From the NCBI GenBank assembly GCA_009778135.1, contig WRKJ01000104.1:1-52122 (forward strand): a stretch of 52,122 nt of DNA. The letters are read 5' to 3'. Positions 22,797 to 25,690 of this stretch are shown here, piece after piece (the first letter of the stretch is position 1; each line of letters starts with the position of its first letter). The notes beneath the pieces are model-generated. The model had not been told where the DNA came from, did no database searches, and saw only the letters and a program-made list of their open reading frames with translations. Both the position numbers and the translations under genes were made by a program. Source of the DNA: Defluviitaleaceae bacterium. GTDB taxonomy: Bacteria > Bacillota_I > Bacilli_A > MOL361 > Turicibacteraceae.

Positions 22797-23060
22797 CTAT
22801 TTGATGATTTTTTCAAGAATTTTTGTAATTTCATCCATCTTTTGGGCACTGTCGTCTGCTGCAACAGCAGCTGTCACACAGTTGGCAATATGTTGCTTTA
22901 AAATCAACACTTGCGCTTTTTTAACCAAGCCTTGCGTCGCCGCAATTTGATTTGAAATATCCATACAATAGCGTCCATCTTCAATCATTTTAATGACACC
23001 GTCAATTTGGCCTCGCGCTGTTTTTAACAGTTGCATGGCTTTTTCTTTTTCTTCATTCAT
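22797..23060 (-). CDS. csoR: CsoR-family copper-sensing repressor
   Basis: An 87-residue all-helical DUF156 repressor. The copper ligands of CsoR are present: C32 in RYCMDI and H57/C61 in KQHIANC, spaced as in the C-H-C triad. Copper binding releases the protein from its operator. It is the second gene of the operon, 70 bp after copA, with a matching G/C-rich operator over the copA promoter, so it would act as an autoregulated copper switch. The start is unclear: ATG at 23060 or 23066 lacks a good ribosome site, while a strong AGGAGG lies in front of a tiny reading frame just upstream. Confidence 0.92.
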   Translation of the reverse strand: MNEEKEKAMQLLKTARGQIDGVIKMIEDGRYCMDISNQIAATQGLVKKAQVLILKQHIANCVTAAVAADDSAQKMDEITKILEKIIK

Positions 23061-23081
23061 GTTCATCGATGCGCAAGCAGT

Positions 23082-23135: not shown

Positions 23136-25615
23136 TTACGCTTTAAAATGCTTGAGTCGCAACGCATTTAAAATGACCGAAATAGAACTAAAAGCCATGG
23201 CAGCAGCGGCAAACATCGGGTTTAATAAGGGACCACCAAATAAATGCAACACACCCGCTGCCACTGGAATACAAATCATGTTGTAAATGAAAGCCCAGAA
23301 CAGGTTTTGTTTAATATTGGAAATGGTTTTTTTCGACAGTTTAATCGCAGTGGCAACAGCCATTAAATCATTTCGAATGAGAACGATGTCTGCTGATTCA
23401 ATGGCGACATCGGTTCCAGAACCGATGGCTATGCCAACATCTGCTTGTACCAATGCGGGCGCATCGTTAATCCCATCACCCACCATCGCCACTGATTGAC
23501 CTGCTTGTTGCAGTCGTTTTATTTCTTCTGATTTATGACCAGGCAACACGTCAGCAAGGACGCGATCGATACCCACTTGTTTTGCAATCGCTTCTGCTGT
23601 TTGTTTGTTATCCCCGGTTAACATGGCCACTTCAATGCCTAACTGTTGTAATGTCGCAACCGCTTTTTGACTACTTGCTTTGACCACGTCTGCAACGGCA
23701 ATAATGCCTTGTAGCTGACCCTCTACTGCCACATACATGGGTGTTTTCCCCAGGGTTGCCAAATCACGTGATGGAGATAACTGCATCGCGTCAAGTTGGA
23801 TGTGTTGCTCTTCCATGAAACGTTGATTCCCAATGAAGATGCGCTTGCCATGAACCGTCGCTTTGATCCCTTTCCCTGTCATCGCTTCAAATGTGTCAAC
23901 GTCAAACAAGGATAAGCCTTTTTCTTTCGCTTCATTGACGATGGCAACACCGAGCGGATGTTCTGACCCTGTTTCGGCTGATGCTGCCAATTGTAATAAA
24001 GCGTCGGCTGAACGACTTTCATTCATCAAAATGACATCTGTTACCACTGGTTTTCCTTCTGTTAACGTACCCGTTTTATCAAAAACAACGGTGTTCAACC
24101 GATACGCACTTTCAAGGGCCACACCTGATTTAATTAAAATGCCATTTTCTGCGCCTTTTCCTGTTCCAACCATTAAAGCAGTTGGCGTTGCCAACCCTAA
24201 TGCACAAGGACAAGCAATGATTAAAACTGAAATAAAGACAACCATCGCCAGTTCAACATTTCCTGTTCCGATGTACCAGAGCACACCCGCTAAAATTGCA
24301 ATGAAACATGCAACAGGAACGAAGTAACCCGTCACGACATCTGCAATTTGCGCAATGGGCGCTTTCGAACCGCTGGCTGCTTCCACCAGTTTGATAATTT
24401 GAGCCAAAGCTGTTTCGCTTCCAATCTTCGTCGCTGTAAACTGAATCATGCCATTTGTATTGATGGTCGCTGCAAAGACGTCATCACCGACATGCTTATC
24501 AACGGGCATGCTTTCACCCGTCAGCATGGCTTCATCAATGGCCGTATTCCCTTTGATAATCGTGCCATCAACTGGGATTTTTTCGCCCGGTTTCACAACG
24601 ACCACATCACCTATTTCAACGTCATGAATGGGCACTTCTATTTCGGTCTCATTTTGAATGATCATGGCCGTCTTTGGTGTCAACCCCATTAATTTTTTAA
24701 TGGCTTCTGATGTTTTACGCTTGGAAATGGCTTCGAGTGTGTTGCCTAATAAAATTAAGGTCACAATGACACCTGCAGTTTCTAAAAACAAATACATGAC
24801 CATGTGATAATGCCCTTGATAAACATGCCAAATATTTAATAGACTATAAGCCACTGCAGCCGACGTTCCCAACGCAACGAGCGAATCCATATTGGGACGT
24901 CGCTTCAACAAAGCAGTAAAGCCTTTGACATAAAAATCTCGTCCAGCAACTAAAATCGGCACTGTTAACACCACTTGCACCCATAAGTGAATCAACGGAT
25001 TTTCCATCGGATCAATCAGCTGTGGCACTGATAAGGGAAGCCAGCCCAAGCCAACCATCTCAAGCATCGGCACCATCGCCACGTAAAACAACGGTACGCA
25101 AAAAACAACAGCTAACAGTGTTTTACGCCAAAGGCTTTTAACTTGCTTGTCTTTACGCAATTGATCCTCATCAACGGCATCAAAAGTGGTCAATGCTAAC
25201 GGTTCAAAACCTAAGTCTTTAATGACCTGTTTCATCTTAGCCACTTTAATGACGGTCGGATCATAATGAATCATTGCTTTTTCAGTCGCAAGGTTAACAG
25301 ATACATCGACGATGCCTTCAAGCTTTGCAAGTATCTGTTCGATGTTTCCAGAACAAGACGCACAACTCATCCCAGCAATCGGAATCGTGACTTGACTGTC
25401 TTTTTTTTTTCCAACACTTGAAAACCTAATGTCGTGACGGTTTCTTTAATGGCTTCAACAGAGATGACAGCTGGCTCAAATTCCACCGATAATTGCTCGG
25501 CTGCTAAATTAACAGACGCCATGTGAACACCAGCCAGCTTACCCACTGTTTGCTCGACTTTTCCTGAACAAGACGCACAGTTCATGCCGCCTACACCAAT
25601 GATTTGTTTTTCCAT
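23136..25615 (-). CDS. copA: Copper-exporting P-type ATPase CopA, complete only after a -1 shift at A10
   Basis: The full protein would be about 826 residues, a P1B-type Cu+ pump of the cytoplasmic membrane. Two heavy-metal domains have GMNCASC and GMSCASC. The rest has the membrane CPC motif ([13 protein letters not shown]), DKTGTLTEG with the phosphorylated Asp, the SEHPLG motif, [10 protein letters not shown] and a final [13 protein letters not shown]. The gene is split: domain 1 reads from ATG 25615, everything else is in the -1 frame from a run of ten A (25401-25410 on this strand). Both sides are intact and conserved. Slippage by polymerase or ribosome, or a one-base loss, would explain it. 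AGGAGG lies 7 nt before the ATG. Confidence 0.88.
25367..25615 (-). CDS. CopZ-like short product: first metal-binding domain of CopA without frameshift
   Basis: Read without a shift, translation from 25615 gives 82 residues: one complete heavy-metal-associated domain ([19 protein letters not shown], CxxC at about residues 13-16) plus a short basic tail after the A10 run ([13 protein letters not shown]). This is the size and content of a CopZ copper chaperone. No separate copZ gene is in the operon. In E. coli, copA yields a similar chaperone from its first domain by programmed frameshifting. Here the unshifted product would be the chaperone and the shifted one the pump. Confidence 0.7.
25401..25410 (-). 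other. A10 slippage site inside copA
   Basis: Ten consecutive A on the coding strand (GG-A10-G). In frame 0 the codons are GAA-AAA-AAA-AAG; slipping back one base gives GAA-AAA-AAA-AAA-GAC and joins the CopA body. Runs of this length are known to slip in transcription and translation. A sequencing error in the homopolymer is the main alternative. Confidence 0.7.
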
Positions 25616-25635
25616 ATTTATTCCTCCAATGCCTC

Positions 25636-25653
25636 CACCCCCTAGAGGGGGTG
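25636..25653 (-). promoter_or_regulatory. CsoR operator of the copA-csoR operon
   Basis: CACCCCCT and AGGGGGTG form a perfect inverted repeat around AG. This matches the GC-rich CsoR operator type (TACCCC-N-GGGGTA). It sits just downstream of the -10 region, where a bound repressor would block transcription, and the operon encodes CsoR itself. Confidence 0.88.
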
Positions 25654-25661
25654 CTCTCATT

Positions 25662-25690
25662 ATCATACACCATTTTAAACGAGAATGCAA
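25662..25690 (-). promoter_or_regulatory. Promoter of the copA-csoR operon
   Basis: TTGCAT (25685-25690) and TATGAT (25662-25667), 17 bp apart on the minus strand, lie directly upstream of the CsoR operator. Confidence 0.7.

Follow-up and report, generated by a model that had tools for sequence, protein, structure and literature searches.

The closest described relative of the arrangement reported here is copA of Escherichia coli, which, as far as the cited accounts describe it, is subject to programmed frameshifting by ribosomes in the -1 direction (Meydan 2017; Drees 2017; PMC5009743, PMC7558416, PMC9548414). A second type of relative is found among genes subject to transcriptional slippage, in which an A/T run of at least nine lies at a frame transition. 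The A11 run of Citrobacter rodentium tssM1 gives rise to A10-A15 mRNAs and both resulting proteins are needed (PMC4256274), and the A9 run of Thermus dnaX gives about 50% short product (PMC1088944). Poly(A) genes of endosymbionts yield 12-50% corrected transcripts (PMC5009743). Avoidance of long runs was described by Baranov et al. in genomes where slippage is harmful (PMC1088944), ribosomes are known to slide on AAA codons (PMC4363877), and in one systematic study poly(T) provoked more slippage by the RNA polymerase of E. coli than poly(A) did (PMC6260861).

The copA gene considered here is encoded on the minus strand of the window (i.e., the whole 52,122-nt stretch of DNA that was analyzed) and is linked to csoR. 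An A10 run (25401-25410, minus strand), the longest A/T run anywhere in the window, is positioned at its HMA1/HMA2 junction. In minus-strand order, the gene is preceded by a predicted sigma-A type promoter-like site (TTGCAT-N17-TATGAT, 25662-25690), an inverted repeat (ACCCCC-TCTA-GGGGGT, 25637-25652), and a GGAGG ribosome binding site (TTGGAGGAATAAATATG, 25623-25627) that lies 7 nt 5' of ATG 25615. The original prediction had assigned this same ATG as the start together with an AGGAGG site; the start was retained, and the letters of the site were corrected to GGAGG. Located 3' of copA is a gene for a csoR-type metal-sensing repressor of 89 aa (22797-23066, minus strand; PF02583, E 4.1e-24), the product of which has the Cys-His-Cys pattern (YC, QH, NC) of copper-sensing CsoR. 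Linkage to csoR suggests that the inverted repeat is a putative CsoR operator, and a similar C-rich/G-rich repeat (ACCCCCACCGAGGGGT) is present at the equivalent place in G001, a genome from the same genus.

Read from ATG 25615, the zero frame encodes one complete HMA domain (MNCASC; PF00403, E 2.5e-15, a profile match to residues 8-65), passes through the A10 run, and terminates at TGA 25369-25367, which results in an ORF of 82 aa that comprises HMA1 and a tail (25367-25615, minus strand). The second HMA domain (MSCASC) and the entire P-type ATPase are encoded in the -1 frame (23136-25400, minus strand), which is open from slightly 5' of the A10 run to TAA 23138-23136 and has no further lesion across 744 codons. 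This partitioning, with one intact domain ahead of a stop after 82 residues and an intact second domain and pump in the -1 frame, agrees with the original prediction. The pump matches TIGR01511 with 623.6 bits (cut-off, 397) and carries A-domain, CPC, DKTGT, TGES, SEHPL, YNMICIP, and MAFSS motifs. The profile, the catalytic motifs, the membrane CPC, YNxxxxP, and MxxSS are all those of a P1B-1 Cu+ ATPase CopA, and copA has the two N-terminal CASC HMA domains expected of such an enzyme; the protein predicted from the -1 frame is a Cu+ P1B-1 ATPase CopA. The predicted 82-aa product is CopZ-like in that it carries a free-standing HMA domain with MxCxxC, where a CopZ copper chaperone is defined as a free-standing HMA protein with MxCxxC and about 65-80 aa. 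However, it scored 59.7 bits against the CopZ model, below the cut-off of 91.

The earliest ATG, GTG, or TTG codon in the pump frame is ATG 25370, from which an ORF of 744 aa can be annotated. No Shine-Dalgarno sequence was read before this codon and no well-placed internal Shine-Dalgarno sequence was detected, which upholds the earlier claim that the pump has no ribosome-site start of its own. A separate pump start that would cover all of HMA2 was also rejected, given that the pump frame has no start codon ahead of ATG 25370.

The zero frame across the run reads TTG GAA AAA AAA AAG ACA. The dnaX-type heptamer A_AAA_AAG, which had gone unnoticed in the original prediction, is thus placed exactly in register within the A10 run and the G that follows it, at the end of HMA1. 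A -1 slip at this heptamer would continue as GAC AGT CAA GTC ACG ATT CCG ATT GCT GGG ATG AGT. When hypothetical transcripts that differ in run length were translated, A10 gave 82 aa, A11 gave 826 aa, A8 gave 825 aa, and A9 and A12 gave dead ends of 98-99 aa. The 826-aa pump that would result from either a -1 slip or an A11 transcript compares with 825 aa in G001 and has the linker length of the G001 protein (linker, FTVIEEKKNSRATIPIAGM). Together, the register and the products of the different run lengths suggest that slippage of the polymerase and slippage of the ribosome would yield the same pump. No downstream stimulatory RNA structure was predicted in the window (z of +0.57 to +0.71 relative to shuffles, for folds free of pseudoknots), and no Rfam families were matched in the window.

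The split copA resembles known slippage and frameshift genes and does not represent a new class. To the extent that the cited accounts describe it, E. coli copA is alike in yielding two products, of which the shorter (about 70-82 aa) is its first HMA domain, in the -1 shift, and in a slippery sequence where HMA1 ends. However, the zero frame of E. coli copA encodes the pump and its -1 frame the chaperone, whereas these roles are reversed in the window, where the heptamer A_AAA_AAG is inside an A10 run and is accompanied by no predicted stimulatory structure; it is G001 that matches the direction of E. coli. Window copA falls outside the E. coli-type copA frameshift genes, from which it differs in direction, in having no predicted stimulator, and in its lack of conservation (described below); it may work in a similar manner.

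Slippage genes other than copA provide further points of comparison. As in C. rodentium tssM1, the window has a long A run shortly before a premature stop, the genomic frame is that of the short form, and slippage is predicted to restore full length, although tssM1 is a different gene with proof from mass spectrometry and genetics and the window is known from sequence alone. The gene shares with dnaX the heptamer (A_AAA_AAG in E. coli), the class of A run (A9 in Thermus), and two proteins with a common N-terminus, but in dnaX the zero frame gives the long product, stimulators are known in E. coli, and the protein is unrelated to CopA. Frameshifted poly(A) genes of Buchnera and Blochmannia are likewise intact but for a single indel, located within a long A run and tolerated via slippage (PMC5009743, PMC3017870). 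In contrast to the window's genome, which strongly avoids such runs, these insect endosymbionts tolerate >100 coding runs of A9 or more.

On balance, we lean toward the reading that the A10 run is real and slippage-prone and that slippage makes both the 82-aa HMA protein and the full pump. We infer a genuine run, slippage upon it, a stable short product with chaperone function, and induction of the gene by copper. Under this reading, copA would be copper-induced under the control of a CsoR-type repressor, and a one-base frame break would be situated at the slippage-prone A10 run between the two N-terminal HMA domains. Faithful reading would give the 82-aa HMA protein, which could serve as a copper chaperone, while minority decoding would give the full 825/826-aa pump, through slippage of RNA polymerase to A11 or A8 transcripts and/or through a -1 slip of the ribosome at A_AAA_AAG. 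The break would most likely have arisen by replication slippage in the Lys-rich linker and would persist because slippage supplies the pump. Since published A9-A11 runs give mixed transcripts, some full pump would be expected without special design if the A10 run is real; the amount is uncertain given that slippage of the E. coli polymerase is weaker on A than on T. The DNA is accounted for just as well by a one-base indel that slippage makes tolerable, or by a run that was miscalled, as by the setting of a ratio, and a selected chaperone-to-pump ratio is no more than a possibility. If true, the slippage reading would provide a second, independently evolved copA that gives a chaperone and a pump, outside of the enterobacteria and with the frame roles reversed, and the slippage of copA would possibly take place at transcription instead of translation.

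The evidence base for the split is the DNA sequence of a single draft genome (109 contigs; estimated contamination of 2.57%), and its distribution appears to be equally narrow. The order was sampled by eight genomes, including that of the window (G000), that belong to one family and three genera. G001 (71% identity) encodes copA in one frame (825 aa) with only an A7 run, and its linker reads GAA GAA AAA AAG AAT AGC. The copA of G007, from a sister genus (68%), is also in one frame and has no A run, and genomes of the genus denoted g2 (49-57%) encode copA in one frame, with the copy in G005 cut by a contig end. Collectively, no copA frame break was detected in the seven other genomes of the family (G001-G007), as far as contigs allow. 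In a class-level sample queried with HMA1-linker-HMA2, 78 genomes matched and only G000 produced overlapping pieces in two frames. In a phylum-level sample, which overlaps the class-level sample, 124 genomes matched and only G000 was split among the matches listed. More sequences of the species were sought in viral contigs, with no match. A split conserved in relatives was rejected based on the unbroken genes of G001-G007 and the wider class and phylum surveys, which revealed no similar split among the matches listed; the split thus appears private to G000 as far as is visible. Conservation of the run and frame break therefore did not hold when relatives were compared, with A7 in one frame in the same genus and no such run in sister genera. 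The observation that the original prediction had named against itself, namely relatives with the gene in one frame and without a long homopolymer, is in its literal form what was found.

The one-frame genes of every relative, and the draft state of the assembly (109 contigs), are also what would be seen if the break were an assembly or consensus artefact, in which case the true run would leave the frame unbroken from HMA1 to HMA2 and copA would be an ordinary two-HMA pump. At the length of an A10 run, slippage during PCR and in reads can make consensus calls unreliable. About 430 kb of the assembly was sampled by region (39% GC in the sample), and 182 A/T runs of 7-9 within ORFs were found to keep frame. 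The only convincing frame break at a homopolymer in this sample was that of copA; the remaining candidate breaks were judged by eye to be gene junctions or spurious ORFs, and on these grounds the idea of widespread homopolymer errors, or of decay, in the assembly was rejected. Nine distinct A/T runs of at least 10 were identified genome-wide, four of them coding; of these four, only that of copA breaks frame, and the rest (A10 or A11 in length) keep it. A general homopolymer problem in the assembly is unlikely, with only three comparisons available at A10/A11 length, and the runs of 7-9 together with these three make a routine homopolymer miscall less likely. We consider an artefact unlikely, although by no means negligible. 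If the break is not real, the locus serves as a caution that what resembles a designed switch in a draft genome can come from a lone A10 run.

Long A runs are otherwise scarce in the coding sequences of G000. Three A runs of at least 9 were observed in 371 kb of other CDS, whereas synonymous shuffles gave about 34 on average; shuffles of 340 CDS yielded 25-40 such runs, which amounts to a depletion of about 11-fold. T runs of at least 9 numbered five, versus 13-21 in the same shuffles of 340 CDS. The strong depletion of long A runs makes the intragenic A10 a rare exception in G000. Slippage of polymerases or ribosomes on long A runs would be expected to bring about such avoidance, which could equally reflect mutability in replication; ribosome sliding on AAA codons would also cause it.

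Retention of the A10 run despite this strong avoidance is among the observations that fit a programmed two-product gene, in which the run would be selected for a chaperone-to-pump ratio as a mirror of E. coli copA. Also consistent with a programmed gene is a genus without copZ. The absence of copZ from the copA operon of the window, claimed originally, was borne out and extends to the whole genome: a genome-wide HMA search revealed no cysteine-bearing copZ in G000 (97% complete) or in G001 (75% complete). The sole other HMA match in G000 outside of copA (C85) is weak, falling under the Pfam cut-off, and has a counterpart in G001; neither has CxxC, and C85 was rejected as a copZ encoded elsewhere in G000. 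In both genomes of the genus, the gene for a conserved HMA-fold protein (about 70-78 aa; L196:1984-2220 and L197:1566-1775) that lacks CxxC, and with it the metal site, adjoins a tadA-like deaminase gene.

Genomes of g2 encode a small CxxC HMA protein directly behind copA, and G007 encodes a separate copZ in front of copA (L198:3531-3902). Phylogenetic reconstruction of 70-residue domains grouped the G007 chaperone with the CopA HMA domains of G000, G001, and G007 (91/88), in a short alignment with a long G007 row, and placed other CopZ in a separate group (97/96). By pairwise score, the closest matches to the G007 chaperone were HMA1 of G000 and G001 (146 and 145), with the next best at 112. 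These observations weakly suggest that the copZ of G007 is a chaperone re-made from a pump domain, and a CopA-derived HMA domain that acts as a free chaperone would fit the lineage, which favors a programmed copA.

The arrangement in G001 bears on the programmed reading as well. In its copA (L199:2065-4542), a slip site is located at about nt 204-215 of the gene, where the linker holds an in-register A_AAA_AAG and a -1 slip would read GAA TAG, with a stop one codon later. Such a slip would free a 73-aa HMA protein and leave the zero frame to encode the pump, as in E. coli copA. An imperfect stem of 12 bp (GCGCGA.CAUUCC...GGGAUG..UUGUGC) is predicted to start 7 nt 3' of the heptamer and was matched in 3/200 dinucleotide shuffles. 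Nevertheless, the stem is not unusual among synonymous versions of the coding sequence (p about 0.19), and the probability of the heptamer and stop from codon usage alone, given the protein, is about 0.09. The programmed reading is further weakened by a break that is known from one genome and by a window without a predicted hairpin, and we judge it, too, to be unlikely without being negligible. The readings overlap in part, in that the programmed case lies inside the slippage explanation. That the chaperone is the default and slippage supplies the pump in a copZ-less genus, with copA recoding having evolved independently and the frame having flipped within the genus, strikes us as rather unlikely.

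Where copper is scarce a copper pump may not be needed, and the break may instead reflect a real loss-of-function or phase-variable state in which replication slippage shuts down pump production in some of the cells and little of it is usefully rescued. Contingency loci that consist of poly(A) runs are known, as in p78 of Mycoplasma fermentans (PMC3711429). However, the remainder of the pump ORF is undamaged, and some pump would be expected even in an 'off' state given that long bacterial A runs commonly slip in transcription (PMC5009743, PMC3017870); we view such a state as rather unlikely.

Translational coupling, a further conceivable route to the pump in which ribosomes from TGA 25369 would re-initiate at ATG 25370 by way of the ATGA overlap between this codon and the stop of the 82-aa ORF, is highly improbable, since ATG 25370 has no Shine-Dalgarno sequence, the product would miss the first strand of HMA2, and the overlap, which the conserved GM(S/N)C codons (GGG-ATG-A) dictate and which is also present in the one-frame copA of G001, is therefore no sign of selection.

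Returning to slippage in copA more broadly, a slip heptamer with a near stop was absent from most of the two-HMA linkers compared. G001 is a better candidate for E. coli-type recoding than window copA, and its site is suggestive, but only suggestive, of a candidate E. coli-type copA frameshift outside of the enterobacteria. The heptamer and near-immediate -1 stop of G001 lead to the testable prediction that loss of copZ accompanies copA recoding. Another possible copA frameshift site was observed in the class-level genome G118 (L184), where the linker reads CAT TTA AAA AAT GAT; TTTAAAA/AAAAAAT heptamers lie where HMA1 ends, and a -1 stop follows within one codon.
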